64,000 nucleotides of DNA from Hydrogenophilales bacterium 16-61-112 (lineage in GTDB: Bacteria; Pseudomonadota; Gammaproteobacteria; Burkholderiales; Thiobacillaceae). Made by a program: the position numbers and the translations under genes. Numbering within the stretch: position 1 is the first letter of the stretch; each line of letters starts with the position of its first letter. Below the pieces are notes generated by a model that did not search any database, was not told the DNA's origin, and was given only the letters and a program-made list of their open reading frames with translations. The stretch spans positions 1 through 64,000 of the forward strand of contig NCHD01000017.1 of NCBI GenBank assembly GCA_002257045.1. Direction: 5' to 3'. Below are positions 2,896-45,933 of the stretch, one piece after another.

Positions 2896-4416
2896 ATGCG
2901 CTATTCGTCCTGCTGGATGTTGCTTGCCAGCCTGCTTGCCGGCGCGCTCGCCATCGGCGGCTTTGCCCCGTTCAATTTCTGGCCGCTGCCATTGCTGAGC
3001 CTGGCCGTTCTGTTTGCCCTGCTGCTGCGCACGTCGTCGCGGCGCGCCGGATTCCGTATCGGGTTTGCCTGGGGACTGGGGTTTTTTCTCACCGGCGTCA
3101 GCTGGATTTACATCAGCCTGTCGGTCTACGGCGGCATGTCGATGGGACTGGCAGGGCTCGCCACGCTGATGTTTTGCAGCTTGATGGCGCTGCTTCCGGC
3201 GCTCGTCGGCGCGCTTTCAGCGCCTGCTTCGGGCGCTGAAAGCGCGCCGGCTTTTGCGACCCTTCGGCTGCTGCTCGGACTCCCGCTGTTGTGGGGCCTG
3301 TCGGAATGGGTACGGGGCTGGATATTCACCGGCTTTCCCTGGCTCAGCCTGGGCTATTCGCAAGTGCCGGCCAGCCCGCTGGCCGGCTATGCGCCAGTGC
3401 TCGGCGTCTATGGCGTGTCGTTTGTCATGGCCCTGATCGCAGCCCTGCTGGCGTGGGGCCTTGCTCCGCGTCGGCAGCCTGCGCTGCGCGCCTGGGCCCT
3501 GGTTGCCGTGCTGGTGCTGACCATCGCGGGCCAGGCCTTGCGCAGTGTCGTCTGGACCACGCCGCTGGGCGCACCGACCACAGTCGCGCTGCTGCAAGGC
3601 AATGTCCCGCAAAACCTGAAATGGCAACCCGGCAAAACGCGCGCCACGCTGGACAGTTACGCGCGCCTGGCCGCCGCTTCGCCCGCGCAGCTCATCGTCC
3701 TGCCCGAAACCGCCCTGCCGTTGTTCGAATCGGCGTTGCCCGACGCGGATCGCGCCCGGCTGGCCACGATAGGCCGCCAAAATGGCGGCGACCTGCTCGC
3801 CGGCCTGCCGACCGGGTCACTCGATGGCGCGTATTACAACAGTGTCATCAGCCTCGGCAGCGCGCCCAGCCAGCGTTATCACAAGACGCATCTGGTGCCG
3901 TTCGGCGAATACATTCCGCTGAAAGCCGTATGGGGCTGGGTGATCACGGTGCTGCACATTCCGCTGTCCGACTTTGCGCGCGGCGCCCCTGACCAGCGCC
4001 CGCTTGCCGTAGGCGGCCAGCAGGTGGCCGTCAATATCTGTTACGAAGACGCGTTTGGCGAGGAAATCATCCGCCAACTGCCCGCTGCAACCGTACTGGT
4101 CAACGTCAGCAATCTGGCCTGGTTCGGCGACTCGCTCGCACCATGGCAGCATGCGCAGATGTCGCAAATGCGCGCGCTGGAAACCGGCCGCATGATGCTG
4201 CGCGCCACCAACACCGGGCTCACCGCCATCATCGACACCCGGGGGCGGTTGCTGGCCAGTTTGCCGCCCTTCACCCAGGGCAGCCTCGGCGGGACAATCC
4301 AGGGTTATGCCGGCAGCACGCCCTATGCGCGCTGGGGCAACGCAGCCGTGCTGGGGGTATGGGGCGTGCTTGCGACAGGGCTTGGGCTGCTCGCCTGCTT
4401 CAAGCCACGGCCTTGA
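2896..4416 (+). CDS. lnt: Apolipoprotein N-acyltransferase
   Basis: Adds the third acyl chain to lipoproteins at the periplasmic face of the inner membrane. About 506 residues: several N-terminal membrane helices, then a nitrilase domain with the catalytic triad visible as Glu in LPETALPLF, Lys in YHKTHLVPFGEY and Cys in NICYEDAFGE. I prefer the ATG at 2896, which starts directly before the first hydrophobic helix; a TTG at 2854 and an ATG at 2875 are also in frame. In many proteobacteria lnt follows corC and ybeY, so its place after pyrC' is less usual. Its 3' end overlaps the opposite-strand GGDEF gene by 17 bp. A perfect palindrome sits inside its coding region (3207-3249). Confidence 0.93.
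   Translation: MRYSSCWMLLASLLAGALAIGGFAPFNFWPLPLLSLAVLFALLLRTSSRRAGFRIGFAWGLGFFLTGVSWIYISLSVYGGMSMGLAGLATLMFCSLMALLPALVGALSAPASGAESAPAFATLRLLLGLPLLWGLSEWVRGWIFTGFPWLSLGYSQVPASPLAGYAPVLGVYGVSFVMALIAALLAWGLAPRRQPALRAWALVAVLVLTIAGQALRSVVWTTPLGAPTTVALLQGNVPQNLKWQPGKTRATLDSYARLAAASPAQLIVLPETALPLFESALPDADRARLATIGRQNGGDLLAGLPTGSLDGAYYNSVISLGSAPSQRYHKTHLVPFGEYIPLKAVWGWVITVLHIPLSDFARGAPDQRPLAVGGQQVAVNICYEDAFGEEIIRQLPAATVLVNVSNLAWFGDSLAPWQHAQMSQMRALETGRMMLRATNTGLTAIIDTRGRLLASLPPFTQGSLGGTIQGYAGSTPYARWGNAAVLGVWGVLATGLGLLACFKPRP
3207..3249. repeat. Perfect 18-bp-arm palindrome inside lnt
   Basis: Arms 3207-3224 and 3232-3249 are exact reverse complements around a 7-nt loop (TGCTTCG). The core arm reads GCGCGCTTTCAGCGCC. 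The palindrome is in frame and encodes a small-residue segment rich in Ala, Ser and Gly between membrane helices, so lnt tolerates it. It resembles a REP-type or hairpin insertion more than normal coding sequence. I see no second copy in the window. Confidence 0.7.
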
Positions 4417-5842
4417 TTCGCGTCACGTTGCGGCCGCCGCGCTTGGCTTCCAGCAAGGCAGCATCCGCCCGCGCCAGCGCCTCGTTTTCTTCCTTGTCGT
4501 CGCGGCTATATTCCGACAGCCCGCCACTCCAGGACAGCCGCTGCGTCACGCCCTTGATCAGCTCAACGTTTTCCGGCATTTTGGCGCGCAGCCGCTCGGC
4601 CAGTTCCTGCGCGCGTTCCAGCGGCGTAAAGGGAAACAGCACGCAAAACTCGTCGCCGCCCAGGCGCGCAATGAAATCGCTGTTGCGCAGGGTCGCTTTC
4701 AGCGCCTCGCCGAACTTGATAATCAGCTGATCGCCTGCTTCGTGGCCGAAGGTGTCGTTGACCTGCTTGAAGTTATCGATGTCCATGATCAGCAAACTGT
4801 GCGACCAGCCCTCTTTCATGCTGGCGAACAGCTCTTTCTGCTTCTCGTCGAAACTGCGCCGGTTGTGGACTTGCGACAGGTGGTCGAGGCGCGCCTGCGA
4901 ACTCACTTCCTTCTGCTTGCCGAGCATGATCTTGCCGATTTTCAGCATGGTTTCGATCGGCGAGGAAAACTCCTCCAGCGTGACCGGGTAATCCGCGCGC
5001 AGCCGCTGTTGGCGTAAATCATTGGTGAAGCGAACCATCATGCGCAGACTGTCGCCGACCCGGTTGCGAATCGTCAGCGTGAACGCCATCACCATCACCG
5101 CGATCAGCAGGCTGGCCAACAGCCAACCCAGAAAATAGGGGGCCAGCCGTTCAATCAACGGCTTTTCGTAGCGCCACACGGCAATCGTCCACGGCGTGCC
5201 GTCCAGGGCGATCCAGTTGGGCGCATTGCGTGACTTGATGGCCTGATTGCCGCGCCGCATCAATACGCTGACCGCGCCTTCGCCCTGCTTTTGCTGCAGT
5301 TCGGCGTAGGCGGCAGCATCCGGTAACGGCAGGGTATCGAACAGCGCCTGCAGTTGCGGCATGCTTTGCTCGACAATAACGACCCCCAGGCGCTGGCCTG
5401 CGGCGTTCTTCACCGGGTGCGAAATCGACAGGCTGAAACTGGCAGATGCGCTTTCGCCACCGCGTCCGGCACTGACGATCAGGCGCCGCGTGTCACCCGG
5501 CAAAAACCCCGGCAAAAGCTGGTTCTGCCCTGCGGTGACGAACAGCACAGTCGCATCCTGGTTCAAGGCATGCAGATTGGCCGCCTGCGCCTGGCACACG
5601 TCCGGCGCCGCCGTGGCAAAACACTCCAGGGTTTGCGGATGGTTGGCAATCCAGGCCGCGCTGCGCTGCATTGCCGCAGCGAGAAATTCGATTTGCGTGG
5701 CCATGACCGGCGTATCGATCTCTTCCGCCACCGTCTGTGCCTGCGGCCGCGACAGGTAAATCGCAGCCGTAACCAGCCCTGTCAGCAGCACGAGTGCCGA
5801 GATCAGGGTGAGGCCAAACCGCAATATGGACGAAGAGGGCAT
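4400..5842 (-). CDS. Membrane-bound diguanylate cyclase (sensor domain + GGDEF)
   Basis: Predicted to make cyclic di-GMP from two GTP in response to a periplasmic signal. The 480-residue protein has a membrane helix at about 10-30, a periplasmic region of the Cache type up to about 245, a second helix near 245-270, and a C-terminal GGDEF domain. The active-site motif GGDEF is intact at 395-399 and is preceded by an RxxD inhibitory site (RNSD) at the correct five-residue spacing, so product inhibition is likely. No EAL domain. I chose the ATG at 5842 because the longer frame to 5965 adds non-membrane sequence without support. Confidence 0.88.
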   Translation of the reverse strand: MPSSSILRFGLTLISALVLLTGLVTAAIYLSRPQAQTVAEEIDTPVMATQIEFLAAAMQRSAAWIANHPQTLECFATAAPDVCQAQAANLHALNQDATVLFVTAGQNQLLPGFLPGDTRRLIVSAGRGGESASASFSLSISHPVKNAAGQRLGVVIVEQSMPQLQALFDTLPLPDAAAYAELQQKQGEGAVSVLMRRGNQAIKSRNAPNWIALDGTPWTIAVWRYEKPLIERLAPYFLGWLLASLLIAVMVMAFTLTIRNRVGDSLRMMVRFTNDLRQQRLRADYPVTLEEFSSPIETMLKIGKIMLGKQKEVSSQARLDHLSQVHNRRSFDEKQKELFASMKEGWSHSLLIMDIDNFKQVNDTFGHEAGDQLIIKFGEALKATLRNSDFIARLGGDEFCVLFPFTPLERAQELAERLRAKMPENVELIKGVTQRLSWSGGLSEYSRDDKEENEALARADAALLEAKRGGRNVTRIKAVA

Positions 5843-27795: not shown

Positions 27796-28827
27796 ATGCC
27801 GCATCAAGTCACCATCCAGCCCAGCGGGCACCAGTTCACCGTCGCCGACGACGAGACCATTCTCGAAGCCGCGCTACGCGAAGGTTTTTCGCTGCCTTAC
27901 GGCTGCCGGAACGGCGCCTGCGGCGCGTGCAAGGGCAAAGTCCTGTCGGGGGAACTCGACTACGGCAAGCATTCACCCAACGCGCTCAAGGATGAAGAGA
28001 AAGCGCAGGGACGCGCCTTGTTCTGCCGCGCCAGGCCGCTGACCGACATGGTGATCGAAGCCAAGGAAATCGGCGCAGCCAAAGACATCGTGGTCAAGAC
28101 GCTGCCCTGCCGGGTGGAAAAACTCGAAAAATGCGCCGACGACGTGATGGTGGTCAAGATCAAACTGCCCGCCAATGAGCGCCTGCAGTTTCTGGCCGGA
28201 CAATACGTCGACTTTCAGCTGAAAGACGGCAAGGCACGCAGCTACTCGCTTGCGATCCCGCCGCACGACGATGCGCTGCTGGAGTTTCATATCCGCCATG
28301 TTCCGGGCGGCCTGTTCTCCGACCAGGTGTTTTCCAGCATGAAGGAACGCGACATCCTGCGCCTGAAAGGTCCGCTCGGCAGCTTCTTCATCCGCGAGGA
28401 TTCCGACAAGCCGATGATCTTCATCGCTGGCGGCACCGGATTCGCGCCGATCAAGGGCATGCTCGAACACGCGTTTGCCGAGCACACCGACCGCGAACTG
28501 GTGCTGTACTGGGGTGTGCGCTCGCTGAAGGATTTATACATGGCCAAACTGCCACAGCAGTGGCTGGCCGAGCGCCCCAACTTCAGCTTCATTCCGGTGT
28601 TGTCCAACCCGCAGCCGGAAGATGGCTGGCAAGGCCGCACCGGTTATGTGCACGATGCCGTGCTGGCCGATTTTGCTGATTTGTCCGGTTATCAGGTTTA
28701 TGCCTGCGGCGCGCCGATCATGGTTGATTCGGCACGCGAGGCATTTGTCAGCGCACGCGGGCTGGATGAGGATGAGTTCTTCGCGGACTCGTTTGCGTAC
28801 GCGGCGGACGCCGAAGCTGCAGCATGA
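27796..28827 (+). CDS. 2Fe-2S ferredoxin / flavin reductase (CDP-6-deoxy-delta-3,4-glucoseen reductase-like)
   Basis: 343 residues: a plant-type ferredoxin domain with Cys ligands in YGCRNGACGACKG (about 36-47) and a fourth Cys in LFCRARP, then an FAD domain with RSYSLAIPP and an NAD(P)H domain with GGTGFAPIKGML. It passes electrons from NAD(P)H through FAD to the 2Fe-2S cluster and on to a partner oxygenase or dehydrase. The E1/E3-type annotation (AscD) is by family; no deoxysugar genes are nearby, so the partner is unknown. The stop codon touches the left repeat of the CoiA-like element. Confidence 0.9.
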   Translation: MPHQVTIQPSGHQFTVADDETILEAALREGFSLPYGCRNGACGACKGKVLSGELDYGKHSPNALKDEEKAQGRALFCRARPLTDMVIEAKEIGAAKDIVVKTLPCRVEKLEKCADDVMVVKIKLPANERLQFLAGQYVDFQLKDGKARSYSLAIPPHDDALLEFHIRHVPGGLFSDQVFSSMKERDILRLKGPLGSFFIREDSDKPMIFIAGGTGFAPIKGMLEHAFAEHTDRELVLYWGVRSLKDLYMAKLPQQWLAERPNFSFIPVLSNPQPEDGWQGRTGYVHDAVLADFADLSGYQVYACGAPIMVDSAREAFVSARGLDEDEFFADSFAYAADAEAAA

Positions 28828-28930
28828 AAAAGCCCGCATTGAGCCCAGCCACTCTGAACGTGTGTTGAAAACCTGAATGGTTTTCGGTGGAACCTCGCCA
28901 CACCAGGGCAACTGAGCGGGACGTTTTTTT
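28826..28930. repeat. Left inverted repeat of the CoiA-like element, structured
   Basis: Contains a nested set of dyads: outer AAAAAGCCCGC paired with GCGGG...TTTTTTT, an inner GCCC/GGGC pair, GTGTG/CACAC, and a central hairpin GAAAACC-n5-GGTTTTC at 28867-28885. It starts inside the stop codon of the reductase gene and ends at the stop codon of the CoiA-like gene. On the plus strand it would also act as a terminator, with the T-run at 28924-28930. Confidence 0.8.
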
Positions 28931-30219
28931 CAGGGAACTCTTGGGGTGGGCCAGAAATGGCGCGGTGGGGGACCGACGGGGCTTGGGGCACGCTCAGCGT
29001 CCCAGCGGTGGGTTAGGAATTTTGGCGGCTCGATCTCGGGGTGCGAATCTGGGAGACCGTCCCTGCCTATGCCTTCGTTGCACGGGGTGGTGCGATTACG
29101 TCGCATATTCCGCCAGTAGTCCGGGGGGATGGTAATTTCGTAGTTCCCAGAATGGTCTTTGGTGAGGACGCCGATGGCTGTCAGGAAGTGAATGTATTTC
29201 CAGAAGGCGACGGCGTATTTAGTGTTTTCGTCATCACCGTAGTCGATAGCAAATCCCAACGCCAACCATTCCAAGCATTCCTTGGGGTAAAACGCAGAGG
29301 GATAACTAATTTCGACGATTTGCGTTTGTTCTTGTTGTACGCGAGCGCGATAAACCAACACGGCGGATTGCCAGACCACACGTGGCGCTCCCAATGACTT
29401 TTCCCACGGCACGAACGTCGTCAGTTTTTGGATCTGGTCTTTGGTTAACCCCAGTTTCCGGCAATTCAAGGCTAACTTGGCGGCGGGCGGCATCTCCCTG
29501 TACTTCCGAAATCGGGCTTCCGCTTCGGCCAACTCCGCTTCCCGTTCTTGTTGTTCGAGTGCCGCAATCGATTTGGTAATCTGATCTTCTTCCCAATCCG
29601 CGCGGCGCAGTTCTTCCAGGCGGGGGTGATAGAGCCACTTGGCGGGATAGGGTTTGGTGCGAAAGAACAGTTCTGCCAACCCCGCAAAGGTCACTTGCCC
29701 TTTGAGGCGACTGATGTCGATCTCAATGGCGTGGAGTTGGCGTTGGTTAATTTTGGCTTGCTTGGCGTCATCAACAAAGTGGGTAACGGCGATTTCCACC
29801 AGATAGGTATTACTACCGTTTACAGTCACGATGATATCGGGGCGCATATCACCCAACCCATACTCCACCGCAACGGTATCCAACTTTACTGTGTGCTCAA
29901 CATAGACCGTTTGCGGTTGGGACGGAACCCCATAAAGGGGACGGGCATAGGGATTGATGTACGCAAGGACGGGTAACCGTAACTCCAGCCGTTCGGCAAT
30001 GATTTGCTTGGCGGCGAGATGGACGGCAGTTTCGAGCGCCTTGGCGCAGTCCTCACCGGGCGCGTGGGCAAAATGTGGGGTTTGATGGTTCTGGCGGGCA
30101 ATAAGGGATCGCTGACAAGCAGGACAGATACAGCCACACGCCTTGCCATTCGGCACTTGGCGTGATTCATAGAGCACTTCGTCTTTAAGCCCAAAGGGCA
30201 CCCGCAACGCCGGGAGCAT
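28930..30219 (-). CDS. CoiA-like competence/nuclease-family protein
   Basis: A 429-residue protein of the CoiA-like type. The N-terminal 65 residues carry a zinc-finger-like pattern (CICPAC, then HFAHAPGEDC). A nuclease-like core follows near 120-175 with RPDIIV and LVEIAVTHF, resembling a PD-(D/E)XK-type fold in which the last catalytic position is changed. Residues about 220-260 are an Arg/Glu-rich coiled coil, and the C-terminus is Pro-rich. CoiA promotes recombination during transformation in Gram-positives; here no competence genes are close. A strong GGGAGGAAGG precedes the ATG. Lower GC than its neighbours indicates transfer. Confidence 0.7.
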   Translation of the reverse strand: MLPALRVPFGLKDEVLYESRQVPNGKACGCICPACQRSLIARQNHQTPHFAHAPGEDCAKALETAVHLAAKQIIAERLELRLPVLAYINPYARPLYGVPSQPQTVYVEHTVKLDTVAVEYGLGDMRPDIIVTVNGSNTYLVEIAVTHFVDDAKQAKINQRQLHAIEIDISRLKGQVTFAGLAELFFRTKPYPAKWLYHPRLEELRRADWEEDQITKSIAALEQQEREAELAEAEARFRKYREMPPAAKLALNCRKLGLTKDQIQKLTTFVPWEKSLGAPRVVWQSAVLVYRARVQQEQTQIVEISYPSAFYPKECLEWLALGFAIDYGDDENTKYAVAFWKYIHFLTAIGVLTKDHSGNYEITIPPDYWRNMRRNRTTPCNEGIGRDGLPDSHPEIEPPKFLTHRWDAERAPSPVGPPPRHFWPTPRVP

Positions 30220-30252
30220 ACCTTCCTCCCATTGCCTTTTCGGGTATTGTAG

Positions 30253-30363
30253 CCAGAAAACAAAACGCCCCGCTCAGTTGCCCAAGCGGGGAGAGGTTCC
30301 GGCGAAAACCACTCAGGTTTTCAACACACGTTCAGAGTGCTGGGCATTTAGCGGGCTTTTTTC
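30253..30363. repeat. Right inverted repeat of the CoiA-like element, structured
   Basis: Reverse complement of the left repeat with scattered substitutions. It retains the hairpin GAAAACC-n5-GGTTTTC (30304-30322) and an additional CCCCGCT/AGCGGGG stem at 30268-30290. The outer end GCGGGCTTTTTT is a typical terminator 3' half, lying 33 bp from the stop of the DUF302 gene. Confidence 0.8.
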
Positions 30364-30395
30364 AGACAGCTTGCCTGGGCATCATCGCATTACGT

Positions 30396-30911
30396 TTACA
30401 ACTCACCCTTAGAACCCGCCCGGATGATCTCATCCAGCCCGTCGCGCACCTTCTGGATGCGCGCTTGCAGGTCGGGCGACAGTTTATTGGCCTTGGCAAA
30501 TTCCTCGACGTTGATGTCGATCATGATCAGCCAGCCCTGCCCCTTGGCGTCTTCCACCAGGGCAATGCGGCACGGCACGTAAATCGCAAAGTTCAGGCTC
30601 TGGTCGATCAGGTCCTTGGCGGTCACCGCATCGCAAAACTCGAAAATGGTGGTGGTGCGCTGCGGCTTGCCGGTATTCGCTTCCACCTGCTTGGACAGCG
30701 GCAGCTCGGCCACCAGTTTGAGATTCAGCGCATTGGCACGCAGGCGCATTGACTCCGCCGCGTCGTCCAGGCTAACGCCGGGTTCGATCGCCACTTTGTA
30801 CACCCCCGCCTGCTGCACGGGTGTGGCCTTGGCTGTGGCGGCCAGGCTGACTGGCGCAAACCATGCGCTGGCAAGAACAAGACTCAGGGCAGCAAGAAAA
30901 AACGGTCGCAT
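30396..30911 (-). CDS. Periplasmic DUF302-family protein
   Basis: 171 residues with a signal peptide (hydrophobic core about 5-20, cleavage likely after SLA near 24) and a DUF302 domain around 95-160 (FEFCDAVTAKDLIDQSLNFAIYVPCRIALVEDAKG). DUF302 proteins are small dimeric alpha/beta folds of unknown function, sometimes linked to sulfur or metal metabolism. It is transcribed toward the CoiA element, whose right repeat would serve as its terminator, and lies 104 bp from the end of hemY. Confidence 0.82.
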   Translation of the reverse strand: MRPFFLAALSLVLASAWFAPVSLAATAKATPVQQAGVYKVAIEPGVSLDDAAESMRLRANALNLKLVAELPLSKQVEANTGKPQRTTTIFEFCDAVTAKDLIDQSLNFAIYVPCRIALVEDAKGQGWLIMIDINVEEFAKANKLSPDLQARIQKVRDGLDEIIRAGSKGEL

Positions 30912-39727: not shown

Positions 39728-41101
39728 GTGAAAAAACGCGCTTTCCGATTTATTGATTTGTTCGCAGGTCTAGGGGGGTTCCACCTTGCGCTTAACCGCT
39801 TAGGGGGGACATGCGTCTTCGCAGCCGAATGGAAAGAAAACCTGCGGGACTTGTATGAGAGGAACTTCGAACTCCGCCCTGCTGGTGACATTACACAGAT
39901 CGCCCCCCAGTCGATACCCGACCATGATGTGCTTACGGCAGGGTTTCCGTGCCAACCCTTCTCAAAGGCGGGCGAGCAACTCGGGTTCGAGTGTACAAAG
40001 CAAGGTGGACTTTTTTTCAATGTCGAAGAGATTCTTCGGCAGAAAAAGCCAAGTTTTTTCATTCTCGAAAACGTTCCGAACTTGCTTAAACACGACCACG
40101 GGAAGACCTGGGAAAAAATCCAGAAGCTCTTGGGGCCTGACGGCCTTGGTTACCATATAAAGGCGGCAAAACTCTCGCCGCATAATTTCGGAATTCCGCA
40201 GATTCGTGAGCGCATATACATTGTAGGTTCTGTGCGCCCGCTTACCAGCTTCGTCTGGCCTGAAACCACGGCCGCTGAAACTTCAATTGAAAGTGTTCTA
40301 GACGACCATCCGGCCGATGCGAAACAGTTTTCTCCGCAAGTCCGCGAATGCCTGGACACCTGGGATGCGTTTTTGCAAGCCTGTCCAAAGGATGTAGTCC
40401 TCCCATCGTTTCCGCTATGGTCGATGGAGTGGGGCGCGACTTATCCTTTCGAAGACGAAACCCCCTATGCGCTTAAGGTACTACACGGGCAAGACGCGCT
40501 TAAAGGTTTCAAAGGGAGTCACGGCTCTAAGCTTGACCACATTAGAGATATCGAAAACCGGTGGGGAGCATTGCCAAGCCACGCACGCACGGAACAGATG
40601 GAATTCCCGAAATGGAAGAAGAACTTTATCCGGCAAAACCGGCAGTTCTACAAGGACAACAAATTCTGGATTGACCCCTGGCTACCTCGTATTCTCAAGT
40701 TTCCCTCTAGCCTACAGAAACTTGAGTGGAACGCTCAGGGAGGCAAGCACGACATCTGGAAATACGTGCTGCAGTTTCGGGCCTCTGGGGTACGCATCAA
40801 GCGCCGCACAACGGCGCCTAGCCTTATCGCAATGACTGACACGCAGGTGCCCATCATCGGCTGGCAAAAACGTTACATGACGCCTCGTGAGTGCGCGCGG
40901 CTGCAGAGCTTGGACGCCCTGAAGGAATTGCCCAGCCGCCCGGCGCAAGCGTTCCAAGCCTTGGGCAATGCGGTCAACACTAGTGTGGTCGAGCGAGTTG
41001 CACAGGCGCTGCTCTCGGGCACAGGCGTTGCCCCAACACAAGCACCTAAGAATGAGCAAAAGAGTAGGAAATGTTTTTCTGAATTGGCGGCGGTTGCATG
41101 A
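39728..41101 (+). CDS. DNA (cytosine-5)-methyltransferase
   Basis: The modification enzyme of the island, 457 residues. Conserved C5-methylase motifs in order: I FAGLGGF 12-18, [10 protein letters not shown] with catalytic Cys75, VI ENVPN 114-118, [14 protein letters not shown] about 158-167, [13 protein letters not shown] and [16 protein letters not shown] near 415-430. The variable target-recognition region lies roughly at 190-370, so the site cannot be predicted. A GTG start is used. Overlaps the ATPase gene in an ATGA. GC and codon use are clearly different from the flanking chromosome. Confidence 0.95.
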
Positions 41102-42747
41102 TGGAGGCTACTGATCTGCAACCTGCACCTATTGAGATTCGTCCTGAGGTTACCGTCCTTTCGGTACTGAGGCATCTGAATTACAAGGCATGGTTTGCCA
41201 TCGCTGAGTTCATAGATAACGCGCTTCAGAGTGCCATTGCCAACGGAGAGCGGCTAAGAACACTTCATGATGGTGAATTCCAACTCACTGTTGACGTTCA
41301 ATTCGATCCGATCGAACGTGGGCAGATTGTCATCACCGATAACGCTGCCGGGATTTCGGTAGCCGACTTCCCTCGTGCGTTTCGAGCTGCTCAGACTCCG
41401 ACCGACCGAAGCGGGCTCTCTGAGTTCGGCATGGGGATGAAGAGTGCTGCATGTTGGTTTGCCGAGACCTGGAGCGTGCGAACCAAGGCCATCGGCGAAT
41501 CGGTCGAAAGAACCATCTACTTTGACGTCAAGCATATTGTCGAGAACAAAATTGAGCACTTGAACTCTGAGATTCGCAACGTCGACCCTGCCGCACATTA
41601 CACCGTCGTCTCGCTTCGCGGCCTCCACCACCTTCCCCAAGGCCGTACGGTTGCCAAGATAAAGGAACACCTGGCAAGCATATACCGCGTGTTCCTTCGA
41701 GACGGCCGACTCATCCTTCGGTTCAATGGCGAGTCACTTAGCTATCAGTCGCCACAGGTTCTGAAAGCCATTCGCTACACATCCTCTGGGGTCGCAGCGC
41801 AAGGTGACGGTGCGGTGCCCGTTGAGTGGCGGAAGGAAATTCATCTAGACTTTGGCGATGGTCAGCGCGTCACTGGTTTCGCTGCGTTACGCGAGGTCGG
41901 CTCCACACCGCTCGCAGGTTTTGCACTTTTTCGACGTGACCGCCTGATCGTTGGCAGCCTTGACGATACGTATCGCCCAGCGTACATCTTTAAACAGACC
42001 AACAGTTATGCGTTCCAGAGACTCTTCGGCGAACTTCACGTCGAGGGCTTCGAAGTAAGCCACACCAAGGATGGCTTTCGTTGGGAGGCGTATGAGGACA
42101 TCTTCCTCGAGTTCCTAAAAAAAGCAGTTGAAGCGCCCCCCCTCGACCTGCTCGCACAAGCACAGAACTACCGTGCGCTGCCCTCCAAGAAGTCCATCGA
42201 GGCACGAGCAGTTGCGGCCACTGCGTCAGTTGCCGAGTATCTGGAAAAAGATGTCGCGCCGCTCCTGGTCGCGGCAAGACAGTATCCAGCTGAACCAGCA
42301 GAACTGCCACCCGAAATAGACAGCAGTCCGCTACAAGCGTCCGAGCGCACCGTAACCGTGGCAGACGGCGATTGGCATTGGGTGATTACCCTACGTACTT
42401 CTGTCGATCCTGCTAGAGATGAGTGGGTATCCCTGGCCAAGATGGAGCAGGAGGAAGATGACTCGGACCGAGTGCGTCGATTAAGCCTCGACTTGTCCCT
42501 TGCGCACCCTTTCTCCACCGAGTTCATTGGCGCCAACAACGAGAACGTCGAACTTCTCCTTCGCCTCGCAACTGCCGTCTGCGTCTCACTGGTCTTGTCG
42601 GAAGATCTCACAGGGGAGCCTCCTCAGAGCGTCCTATATCACTTCAATTACTTACTGCGAGGGGCGCTCGCGCGCACGGTTTTCAATAATGACAACATCC
42701 GTCACGATTCTCAGCAAAATCAAGCCTCCCTTGCGCTGGGAACCTAA
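41098..42747 (+). CDS. MORC/MutL-type GHKL ATPase of an R-M locus
   Basis: 549 residues. The GHKL (Bergerat) ATP-binding fold is clear: Glu37 and Asn41 in [17 protein letters not shown] at 81-87, and the ATP lid [13 protein letters not shown] at 108-120. This combination resembles the prokaryotic MORC-like ATPases found in restriction-modification operons together with Z1 ATPases. Such ATPases probably couple DNA recognition to a conformational clamp. It is joined to the methylase by a 4-bp overlap and to the Z1 gene by a 59-bp overlap, so the three are translationally linked. Confidence 0.88.
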
Positions 42748-44950
42748 GCGAGGCGATTTCACGCAGGAGTTCCTTGCGAGCAAGTCAAAAGACCCGAACG
42801 GGCCGAGCTTTGACGATCTCTCAACCGGCGAAAACTCCGTGCTGCAAGAAGCACAGAGAATCCTCGGGCGATGCCTACCTCCAACAGAGCCTGCTGGGCG
42901 CGAGACAGGACTCGTGGTTGGCTACGTGCAAAGTGGCAAGACCATGTCTTTCGAGACAGTCATCTCGCTCGCACGTGACAACAACTACGGCGTGGTTATC
43001 GTTTTCGCCGGCACTAAAAACAACCTGCGCGCGCAATCAGAAGAACGCCTATGCAAGGATCTCGGCATCGACGACGGCGCAAGCTGGCACCATTATTCGA
43101 ATCCTGCAAAAAGTTCTGCTAGCGAAATCGAAGACAGAATTCAGGCATGGCGAAAGCGCCCAATGAAGAAAAGGGCCATTCTGATCACCGTGCTCAAGCA
43201 AGTCGTCAAACTCGAACACTTGGCAACCGTACTAAAGAAGCTTTCTTTGGATAGTGTGCCGGTGCTGATAATCGATGACGAGAGCGACCAAGCCAGTCTG
43301 AACACGAACGCCGCAAAAATCCGCTCAAGAAAAGCTGCCGCAGACGCTAGAAGCACTATCTACGACCGCATCTGTGTCGTTCGCGACACCGTGCCACACC
43401 ACTCGTTTCTCCAGTACACGGCCACACCCCAAGCGAACCTGCTGCTCGCCCAAACCGACCTCCTCAATCCATCCTTCGCGGAACTTGTGACGCCTGGCGA
43501 CGCCTATACCGGCGGCAAGGCTTTTTTTAAGGAGAACCCGGGCTTGGTTATCGACATCCCAAGTCTAGAGGTACCGAGTTCGACCAACGTAGTTTCTGCT
43601 CCACCGAAGAGCCTGCTCGGCGCGCTACGCTACTTCCTTTTGGTGGCAGCACAGCACGCCTTAACAATGGAAAGGGGGAAAGACCGCAACCGGTCCATGA
43701 TGGTCCACCCAGCCATGCTGACTGCATCACACAAGGTCTACAAGGCCTGGATGGACAGGTCGCTCAAAACGCTGACTTCCACCATTGAAAAGCAGTACAA
43801 AAAAACGCCTGCCGACGCTGAAGCACGCTTTCAGACCGAATACAACGCTCTGAAAGAAACTTATCCCGATTTGAAATCGCTGCCCGAACTCATCGAGTCG
43901 ATGGTGGACGAAGTCTTCGACGAAATAAAGTGTGTGGAAGTAAATGGCACACCCGATGCCGAGAAGAAGGTTAACTGGAAATCGACCCCCTATTGGATTC
44001 TCGTGGGTGGCGCCTCTCTTGATCGGGGCTATACAGTGGAAGGCTTAGTCATAACCTACATGCCTAGACCGCTCGGCACCTCGCCAGCAGCAGATACGCT
44101 CCAGCAACGCGCTCGATTCTTTGGATACAAGAGGCCTTACCTCGGACTATGCAGGGTGTTTGTGCAAGACAGCGTTCGGGAAGCGTTTGCCGACTATGTC
44201 GACCATGAGGACTTTGTCAGGGCGGCGCTCATTAGTAATCGTGGAAAGCCGCTAACAGATTGGCGACGTGATTTTATTTTGGGCGCACTGTTGAAACCTT
44301 GCCGCCCCAACGTAATTGGCCTCAGCACCCGCCGCATTCCAGTTGATGGGTGGCTGGTACCTCGCGCCCTCCAAAGAGATGACGTTGCCGCCGAATTCAA
44401 CAGGGAACTCCTGACCAATACAGTTGGGAATTGGAAAGGACGCTTCGGCCCTGCTGTGAATGCAGCGGAGTTTCCGCAGTTCAAAGGTTCGAAGGACGCC
44501 TCGCCAAACTTTGTACTCGAGGCAATCCCGCTGCGCGTAATTCTCGAAGATTTCCTGCTCAAAGTTCAGGTACGAGATCCCTCCGACGCAGAAAAGCACA
44601 GCGCCATTCTCATCGCCATGGCCGAACTATTGCGCGAGGATGAAAGCCTTAAGACAGATGTCTTCTTGATGAACAACCTTGATGCCCAATACCGCACACG
44701 CGACGCTGGTCGAGGTTTTCCTGCCGGACATCGGAATGCGCCTATTAACGAATACTTCAGTAACAGTGCCGATACCGTAAACGATAAAAACTTCATGTCA
44801 GCAGAGCGCGTGTCGCTGCAACTGCGACGCTTCAATCTCGGTACGGCGACGCGAGACAAAAGTTCAGCGGACATCCGAAGCGTTACATGGTTTGCTGTGA
44901 ATGTACCTAGCGCGCTAAGCAAGCACCTTCACATCGAGGGGCGGAGTTGA
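42689..44950 (+). CDS. Z1-domain ATPase / putative restriction motor
   Basis: 753 residues. A helicase-like P-loop ATPase of the Z1 superfamily: Walker A GYVQSGKT at 78-85, Walker B VLIIDDESD at 192-200, a TPQANLL motif near 245 and GGASLDRGYTVEGLVITYMPR in the C-terminal RecA-like half with an arginine-rich QQRARFFGYKRPY. Z1 proteins are known mainly from R-M and phage-defence loci next to MORC-like ATPases. I use the ATG at 42689; the longer frame to 42500 is a shadow within the ATPase gene. The stop overlaps the next gene. Confidence 0.9.
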   Translation: MTTSVTILSKIKPPLRWEPKRGDFTQEFLASKSKDPNGPSFDDLSTGENSVLQEAQRILGRCLPPTEPAGRETGLVVGYVQSGKTMSFETVISLARDNNYGVVIVFAGTKNNLRAQSEERLCKDLGIDDGASWHHYSNPAKSSASEIEDRIQAWRKRPMKKRAILITVLKQVVKLEHLATVLKKLSLDSVPVLIIDDESDQASLNTNAAKIRSRKAAADARSTIYDRICVVRDTVPHHSFLQYTATPQANLLLAQTDLLNPSFAELVTPGDAYTGGKAFFKENPGLVIDIPSLEVPSSTNVVSAPPKSLLGALRYFLLVAAQHALTMERGKDRNRSMMVHPAMLTASHKVYKAWMDRSLKTLTSTIEKQYKKTPADAEARFQTEYNALKETYPDLKSLPELIESMVDEVFDEIKCVEVNGTPDAEKKVNWKSTPYWILVGGASLDRGYTVEGLVITYMPRPLGTSPAADTLQQRARFFGYKRPYLGLCRVFVQDSVREAFADYVDHEDFVRAALISNRGKPLTDWRRDFILGALLKPCRPNVIGLSTRRIPVDGWLVPRALQRDDVAAEFNRELLTNTVGNWKGRFGPAVNAAEFPQFKGSKDASPNFVLEAIPLRVILEDFLLKVQVRDPSDAEKHSAILIAMAELLREDESLKTDVFLMNNLDAQYRTRDAGRGFPAGHRNAPINEYFSNSADTVNDKNFMSAERVSLQLRRFNLGTATRDKSSADIRSVTWFAVNVPSALSKHLHIEGRS

Positions 44951-44952
44951 CA

Positions 44953-45933
44953 GTGAACAGTATTATTTCTTCTTTCCTTGATCTGCCCACCGCAGTTTCT
45001 TCCGCAGAGTTCAAAGCAATACCTTTGAGCACAAGGCGTAAGGACTTTCTCGCCAAGAACGATGACGGCGCGCCCATATTCTTGCTTCACGACTCAAGCA
45101 TCGCTAAATACAGTCCAAGTATCAGCTTTCGCCACCTCTCAGCCCAGTTTCACGCCACATGCCACATTCGGACGGATGAGATTGACCTAGAAGACCAGTT
45201 CTGTCTCGTGTGGTGTGACGCATCGGAACCGGAGTTGCATGAACTTTTTGTCCGATGCGTCGGTGCAGCCATTGAAGAACTCCCCACCGAAAGTGGCACA
45301 AGGGAACTCGAATCCTGCATTTCACAGTTACAAGATCTATTCCGCGCATTGTCTCTACCCAGCAGCTGGGAGGTCTCCGGGCTCTGGGCTGAGTTGTTTG
45401 TCATTTTGAAAAGTGGGAACCCTGCACACGCAGTGAGCCTCTGGCAGGAAGACCAATACGACAGGTTTGACTTCTCAAACACAGCTATGCACCTTGAGGT
45501 CAAATCTACAATTCGTGCTCTTCGAGCGCATGAGTTTGCGTTAGAGCAACTTCAGTCACCAGCAGCAGGCACCGGTTTTGTGGCGTCTCTGATGTTGCAA
45601 CCTCTCACCGGGGGAGTCGGTGTACTGGATATTGCACAAGAAATTGAAGCAGCCATATCTGAAACTCCTGGTCTGAAGCAGAAACTCTGGAAGAACATAG
45701 CTAAGGCTTTAGGCACTGATTTTTCGGACAAACTCGATAAACGTTTTGACCCAACGTTCGCAGAAAAAAGCTTGGCGGTGTACTTGATGAGCGATATCCC
45801 GAGGCCTGATACACCTTCAGACCCAAGAGTCACAGCACTTCGATTTCTCTCGGATTTGACTACGGTTTCTTCTTCGCTAACTGGTACGCCAGCTATAACA
45901 CTGGCCTACGCCTTCTCAAACGCGTTGAGTTGA
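44953..45933 (+). CDS. PD-(D/E)XK nuclease-family protein (DUF4420-like)
   Basis: 326 residues. A likely restriction subunit: Glu147 in GLWAEL, Asp173 in YDRFDFS and the ExK pair at 182-184 (HLEVKST) match the PD-(D/E)XK active-site pattern seen in DUF4420 proteins. It is the last gene of the methylase-ATPase-Z1-nuclease operon. The GTG at 44953 has GGAG at 6 nt; a TTG at 44947 overlapping the Z1 stop is the alternative. Together the four genes make a complete modification-plus-cleavage set. Confidence 0.8.
   Translation: MNSIISSFLDLPTAVSSAEFKAIPLSTRRKDFLAKNDDGAPIFLLHDSSIAKYSPSISFRHLSAQFHATCHIRTDEIDLEDQFCLVWCDASEPELHELFVRCVGAAIEELPTESGTRELESCISQLQDLFRALSLPSSWEVSGLWAELFVILKSGNPAHAVSLWQEDQYDRFDFSNTAMHLEVKSTIRALRAHEFALEQLQSPAAGTGFVASLMLQPLTGGVGVLDIAQEIEAAISETPGLKQKLWKNIAKALGTDFSDKLDKRFDPTFAEKSLAVYLMSDIPRPDTPSDPRVTALRFLSDLTTVSSSLTGTPAITLAYAFSNALS

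Follow-up and report, generated by a model that had tools for sequence, protein, structure and literature searches.

A CoiA-like gene between long inverted repeats in a terminator loop: a putative one-gene mobile cassette without a transposase gene

In the window, by which we mean the whole 64,000-nucleotide stretch of Hydrogenophilales bacterium 16-61-112 that was analysed, a CoiA-like gene with a ferredoxin-reductase-like gene and a DUF302-type gene as its neighbours is enclosed by two inverted arms (Table 1). The element proper spans 28843-30345 (about 1.5 kb) and consists of 88-nt arms around this single gene, which fills the inter-arm space, with its start 39 bp inward from the right arm and its stop where the left arm has its inner edge. 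According to the ORF list, the insert holds no other ORF longer than 142 aa. Consensus scans found no promoter in the start region 30220..30257 and no terminator hairpin in the left arm.

Table 1. Positions of the element, its parts and the split host terminator in the window
Feature	Position	Strand	Remark
Ferredoxin-reductase-like gene	27796-28827		Stop codon at the left half of the host terminator
Host terminator, left half (AAAAA + stem GCCCGC)	28827..28837	+	Terminator unsplit at this position in L046, L047 and L048
Longest possible left duplication copy, GCATTGAGC	28836-28844
Target-site duplication, left copy ATTGA	28838..28842	+	Compared with loop ATTAA of L047
Left arm, 88 nt, tip GCCCAGC	28843..28930	+	Core motif 28852-28871
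CoiA-like gene, 429 aa	28930..30219	-
Start region, -10-like TACAAT and GGGAGG before ATG	30220..30257	-	Read by eye
Right arm, 88 nt, tip GCCCAGC	30258..30345	-	Core motif 30318-30337
Right-arm hairpin like an intrinsic terminator, 10 pairs, tail CGTTTTGTTT	30268..30291	-	Points into the gene
Longest possible right duplication copy, GCATTTAGC	30344-30352
Target-site duplication, right copy ATTTA	30346..30350	+	Compared with relatives' uninterrupted sites
Host terminator, right half (GCGGGC + T6)	30351..30362	+	Compared with relatives' uninterrupted sites

The first-pass annotation had described a single gene between two long inverted repeats that share identical 26-bp and 15-bp blocks with conserved spacing and leave almost no spare DNA, and all of this was found as described. 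The stretches 28825-28930 and 30259-30364 are inverted copies of each other with 79% complementarity in an ungapped comparison, and a wider local comparison of the arms scored 130, compared with 31 or less in 100 shuffles. The arm length of ~105 bp given in that annotation had to be shortened, the outer ~16-18 bp being a half of the palindromic host terminator together with the duplicated loop. When only the element's own 88-nt arms were compared, 78 positions matched in a gapped alignment, and the score was 65, whereas none of 1000 shuffles scored above 5. The inverted repeats are genuine, exceed chance by a wide margin and form part of an insertion, both arms ending at the insertion junctions. 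A terminator scan gave three sites in 2.2 kb, compared with 3.4 expected from shuffles, the right-arm hairpin being the strongest. Folded as RNA, the right arm was better than its shuffles (z -2.73), as was the corresponding arm of the closest homologue described below (z -3.23), whereas the left arm was no better (z +0.92); folded as DNA, the left and right arms gave z -1.19 and -2.96, respectively. The search for known structured RNAs over 28700-30500 returned a single sub-threshold match, to mir-6579 at 28700-28764, which lies outside the element. The CoiA-like gene has a G+C content of 55.3%, compared with 61.7% for the window, and a GC3 of 61.6%, compared with 76-79% for three neighbouring genes. 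The claim of a foreign base composition for the gene is weakened by the 8.8% of window stretches of equal size that have a G+C content as low; the composition is atypical and not unique.

The site of insertion was read from relatives of the same genus. The DUF302-type neighbour was matched in 54 of the 56 genus genomes, the window's own included, many of these matches being to a weaker paralogue alone. Thirty loci were taken, one of them the window's own, and the flank behind the DUF302-type gene was read in 28 of the 29 others, L049 being left out as it reads N behind that gene. The window's insert was absent from all 28 of the flanks read. In the closest three (L046, L047 and L048), whose DUF302 proteins are 88-89% identical to that of the window, the ferredoxin-reductase-like gene adjoins with an intact terminator in between, while in more distant members of the genus the short intergenic sequence is a different one, with a terminator in some and none in others, and L054 has a different gene next to the DUF302-type gene. 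The uninterrupted site of L047 reads AAAAAAGCCCGC-ATTAA-GCGGGCTTTTTTT, and that of the window reads AAAAAGCCCGC-ATTGA, then GCCCAGC...GCTGGGC, then ATTTA-GCGGGCTTTTTT. In the window the terminator is thus interrupted within the loop, which is doubled (ATTGA and ATTTA) with one mismatch. The duplication can be counted as 5, 7 or 9 bp because the stem and the tip of the element share letters. A precise insertion with a target-site duplication is present, with one mismatch, a length of 5-9 bp and reference sites that come from other species; it is from these species of the same genus that we infer the pre-insertion sequence. That gene and arms form an inserted unit, as had been proposed at first, is supported by the relatives' uninterrupted sites, by the loop present twice and by the arms that end at the junctions.

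The encoded protein had been called CoiA-like from the letters alone. For the window protein this label rests on a CoiA_N match below the Pfam cut-off (21.9 bits vs 26.3), although all seven aligned members of the family matched CoiA_N, with a best E of 1.8e-11. No transposase or recombinase domain was recognised in the protein in domain and family searches, in agreement with the earlier remark that the element carries no transposase. The likeness to other family members stops near residue 372, and the last ~57 residues form a tail that reaches the left arm. The gene may have lost its original stop codon close to the arm. This tail (28930-29100) is proline-rich and has no counterpart in the aligned homologues; that of the closest homologue is shorter and also proline-rich. 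The AlphaFold2 model was good at residues ~10-230 and poor beyond 265, with a mean pLDDT of 65.2 overall. Foldseek returned no match at E<=0.001; its best was Bax1 (E 0.011), which was also the best in a profile search of PDB sequences (E 0.58), and an R2 endonuclease was among the Foldseek matches. Fold comparison of the N-terminal part gave mainly PD-(D/E)XK enzymes, as judged from their titles, at Z of 6.7 or less, which are not clear matches. A PD-(D/E)XK nuclease core is possible on the basis of this model. Residues E63, E142 and K153 are invariant in all seven aligned members, and together with D128 they are candidate catalytic residues. In the Polaromonas homologue (L092 1082-2197), the aspartate of RPD, which is D128 and is kept in the other six of the seven, is replaced by glycine, and this copy may be inactive. 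The PD-(D/E)XK fold also occurs in some mobile-element proteins, such as TnsA.

PADLOC gave no match for the window protein, and DruB1 was matched weakly by four of the seven family members (best E 2.7e-4). A CoiA domain is found among the validated defence systems of E. coli, according to the passages of PMC9519451 available to us, and the window protein has a CoiA-type N-terminal region, as CoiA-domain proteins do; by analogy, a defence role might be carried over to the window protein. Elsewhere in the window (39728-45933), a low-G+C operon encodes a C5 cytosine methyltransferase, a GHKL/HSP90-like ATPase, a Z1-domain protein and a DUF4420 protein, the latter a putative PD-(D/E)XK protein, and it looks like a restriction-type defence operon. 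PADLOC matched its Z1 protein to Helicase_II (E 1.6e-50) and MzaC (E 1.2e-28), and gave no match for the ATPase and DUF4420 proteins.

Genome contigs were scanned with a profile made of two sequences, and of 49 candidate stretches 18 were confirmed as relatives. The closest homologue found, with 57-58% identity, lies on a contig of a metagenome-assembled genome labelled Tepidiphilus (L090), which is probably contig 11 of genome G847 and would then belong to another genus of the window's family. Upstream of this gene, the order is GCCCAGC, two bases, CTCTGAACGTGTGTTGAAAA, a terminator hairpin and the start codon, so that the same tip and core as in the window recur in another genus, and in both loci the start codon lies ~40 nt past the terminator-like hairpin. 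The likeness to the window arm begins at GCCCAGC, the same base at which the window's insert has its edge, and covers the outermost ~40 bp of the arm (tip and core), while the remainder of the arm is unlike. These arm scores (49 and 54) were reached by 0 of 200 shuffles; the exact 20 bp common to both loci is unexceptional when taken alone, as the coding regions share an exact 26 nt. The neighbouring genes differ from those of the window and are hdr genes (named by eye), and the outer flank of the arm (AAAAACGGGGCC) shows an A run and a G+C stem half, resembling half a terminator. No downstream arm was recognisable, and no second copy of the arm was found in the locus or its genome at up to three mismatches. 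Comparison of the window gene with this homologue gave dN 0.34 and dS 1.7; the CoiA-like gene has therefore been maintained and is, as judged from these substitution rates, under purifying selection.

An uninterrupted site for this second locus was not found by BLAST against the hdrB loci of 19 relatives, in which the hdr genes were matched; one further match, in L265, was 70% identical to L090:4678-5179. The left flank, compared with 16 longer relative stretches, gave nothing beyond matches of 31-33 bases in three of them; four of the 16 (L272, L273, L277 and L283) reach a contig end or start. The complementary segments L090:2862-2877 and 5246-5261, considered as a terminator split around 2.4 kb, were dropped, the right-hand copy being a complete hairpin by itself. 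Beside the homologue (4169-5003) lie a gene for a DUF2726 protein and a RelE/ParE-type toxin-like gene, the latter named by eye, and this region varies among genomes of the homologue's genus. Against plasmids, the arm of this locus gave 12 records, the best at E 0.2, over the hairpin part.

Homologues of the gene are sporadic, being found in 17 of 399 genomes of the order (E<=0.001) and in 11 of 117 genomes of the family (E<=1e-8), with the window's own counted in both. Besides the closest, we examined those of G710 (51-52% identity), L091 (48%), L092 (43%), Massilia (42%) and G342 (40%), none of which has a significant arm match within 600 bp on either side. Thus one of six homologues has an arm, and an inverted pair like that of the window is present at none of the six. 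The right-arm score of 28 in Massilia was reached by 3 of 200 shuffles and the score of 24 in L092 by 6 of 200, while the best score in G710 was 30, compared with a shuffle maximum of 28 (100 shuffles), at 357-389 bp upstream of the gene; a coarser repeat search over ten loci gave 28 nt at 71% as its longest repeat. Pattern scans for arms around the 15 weaker relatives (L093-L107) are treated below with the ends. The annotation had held that homologues generally lacking repeats would speak against its proposal, and on this point the outcome is mixed: five of the six have no arm, and the closest has one upstream and no recognisable one downstream.

In G710, the gene is a single insert between two convergent genes and is absent there in two genomes of the same genus. 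This insert and the five armless homologues out of six argue for a gene family that travels and mostly does so without these arms. The G710 homologue (L086 6333-7448) precedes a ubiB-like gene, named by eye, and has a hairpin without a T-run just 5' of its start codon; the Rhodoferax bucti homologue (L091 2914-4122) lies directly behind a mutL-like gene, again named by eye, with few bases between. Among plasmids there were 798 records of relatives, all below 60% identity, one of which covers at least 80% of the protein. Phage proteins gave no match to the CoiA-like protein, nor did viral contigs searched with the single query, and the search of viral contigs by alignment gave two distant relatives (29-32%).

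The ends themselves are rare. The arm-end pattern, from tip to core, is GCCCAGCN{1,2}CTCTGAACGTGTG, and the genome samples, which partly overlap and each include the window's own genome, were searched with a 23-mer at up to two mismatches for the order (399 genomes), a 20-mer at up to two mismatches for the class (331 genomes) and a 20-mer at up to three mismatches for the family (117 genomes). The exact core motif was present in two copies in the window and one in G847, and nowhere else in the three samples, and the reading of the arms as ordinary terminators that happen to bracket the gene was rejected, as the motif does not recur there at unrelated loci, the other outcome by which the annotation would have been refuted. 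The three-mismatch matches in G009 and G447 are at control level, the reversed pattern having given six in that sample of 117. Genome contigs yielded no match to an exact 19-mer, a search that misses cases such as the L090 copy, which differs by one base. In a set of 107 loci, homologues among them, whose pattern scans also covered the 15 weaker relatives, the 14-base core was found only in loci derived from the window, in L090 and at the end of mutL in the window's own genome (L006, named by eye); this last match was attributed to chance, the rest of the arm being absent. Viral contigs contained neither the shared 20-mer nor the tip with the core.

The window's own genome yielded no further arm, the samples of the order, class and family yielded no solo arm either, and in 60 near-relative genomes, the own included, the other matches were of 30 bp or less with E of 0.0185 or worse. 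The DNA of 28800-30400 had no match among plasmids, and the right arm alone gave one plasmid and three phage records, all at E 8-9. An autonomous element with these ends was found neither in the own genome and its near relatives nor in the plasmids, phages and genome samples, a search that could miss diverged ends. The search for further copies and empty sites that had been suggested at the outset thus yielded the arm of L090, the uninterrupted sites and the doubled loop, and no second complete copy of the element.

Taken together, we put at about one half the probability that the locus holds a one-gene mobile cassette of ~1.5 kb without a transposase gene, moved in trans into a terminator loop and carrying a putative nuclease as its cargo. 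A transposase acting in trans, supplied by an element that was not found here, would recognise the outermost ~40 bp of the arms, with the tip GCCCAGC and the core, which both ends and L090 have kept, and staggered cuts in the loop of a host intrinsic terminator, which may be a preferred target, would let the cassette be inserted with duplication of 5-9 bp. The terminator of the right arm, pointing inward, would shield the gene from read-through, and the gene would use start signals located just inward of that arm. The putative cargo nuclease would benefit its host, perhaps by acting on foreign DNA, and this seems a likelier role for it than that of the motor of movement.

The right arm could instead be a regulatory leader in which a stem-loop with a conserved loop precedes an intrinsic terminator and control is by attenuation, the left arm being an inverted duplicate and the gene having been inserted with its leader by another route. 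We hold this to be rather unlikely. It would suit the arm that stands directly upstream of the gene in both the window and L090, in the order tip, core, terminator-like hairpin and start codon, the upstream copy that L090 carries alone, the folding of the right and L090 arms as RNA beyond that of their shuffles, and a left arm that neither folds in this way nor contains a terminator by scan. However, a leader predicts neither an inverted copy on the 3' side that ends at the insertion junction nor a conserved segment that starts at the insertion boundary, and it is absent in the homologues of G710, L091, L092, Massilia and G342; we rank it below the cassette moved in trans because the inverted copy at the other junction and the start at the boundary stay unexplained. 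Unlikely, too, is a remnant of a larger transposon, or a composite of two miniature elements, in which the transposase was lost and the ends lie inverted around the cargo. In its favour, the arms greatly exceed in length the ~40 bp common with L090, and composites with two inverted miniature elements are described in the part of PMC13367494 at hand, but neither a solo arm nor a larger relative was found in the own genome or the order, class and family samples, and the gene takes up all the room between the arms.

That the CoiA-like protein itself drives the movement, as the first-pass annotation had ventured as one option, appears very doubtful. A zinc-finger nuclease that binds the structured arms and the terminator hairpins and so brings about its own insertion would fit with exact core motifs that occur only beside genes of the CoiA-like family and with an N-terminal fold comparison that points mainly to PD-(D/E)XK enzymes in the predicted model. 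Yet five of the six homologues, at 40-52% identity, are armless, so that the family is independent of the arms, no recombinase or transposase domain was recognised, and a Z of at most 6.7 and a Foldseek E of 0.011 at best are no clear matches. The fullest form of the idea, a one-gene transposon of a new kind whose CoiA-type zinc-finger nuclease recognises its own long structured ends and inserts the unit into intrinsic-terminator loops without any conventional transposase or recombinase, has in our estimate the lowest probability of all; if it were true that the nuclease moves itself, this would be a new transposon class.

The cassette moved in trans would bear on how such genes spread. Chromosomes and plasmids alike carry scattered CoiA-like genes, whose mode of travel is not evident at these loci; a minimal cassette with readable ends and a readable insertion site would give one route of travel and a motif for finding its mobilising enzyme. 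The loop of a terminator would be a low-cost landing site, because no gene is broken.

Searches of the literature on terminator-entering elements and on CoiA with terminal inverted repeats, in titles and abstracts with few subscription journals covered, gave no description of this architecture; the broader claim that nothing of the kind had been described is not supported as it stood, since mobile insertion cassettes and composites bounded by miniature inverted-repeat elements (MITEs) appear in the published passages available. Of these two published kinds, the cassettes come closest to the window element and the miniature-element composites second. In the excerpts seen of PMC1196294, PMC6542083 and PMC5444012, mobile insertion cassettes such as those of the MIC231 type and the qnrS2 cassette of pAC3 are one or more genes between inverted repeats that lack a transposase and depend on one in trans, MIC231 being activated by the IS231 transposase. 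The window element likewise lacks a transposase gene and has its cargo flanked by terminal inverted repeats; the repeats of the pAC3 cassette are 22 bp long, whereas the window element has 88-nt arms with a terminator in one of them, and its parental element was not found. TIME-COMP elements, as presented in the accessible part of PMC13367494, are similar in that cargo lies between two short repeats, direct or inverse, and is moved in trans; Tn3-family transposons are the source of TIMEs, which are met again and again in many plasmids, whereas the window arms were not found solo in the searched genomes. Published passages describe the pneumococcal SPRITE repeats as terminator-like. Finally, ISPpu9 resembles the window element, as far as the consulted passages of PMC8450116 go, in its fixed place of insertion in a hairpin-forming intergenic sequence and in its short direct repeat; the targets of ISPpu9 are REP sequences, its transposase is its own and its repeat is AG, whereas the window element sits in the loop of an intrinsic terminator, 5-9 bp of which are doubled.
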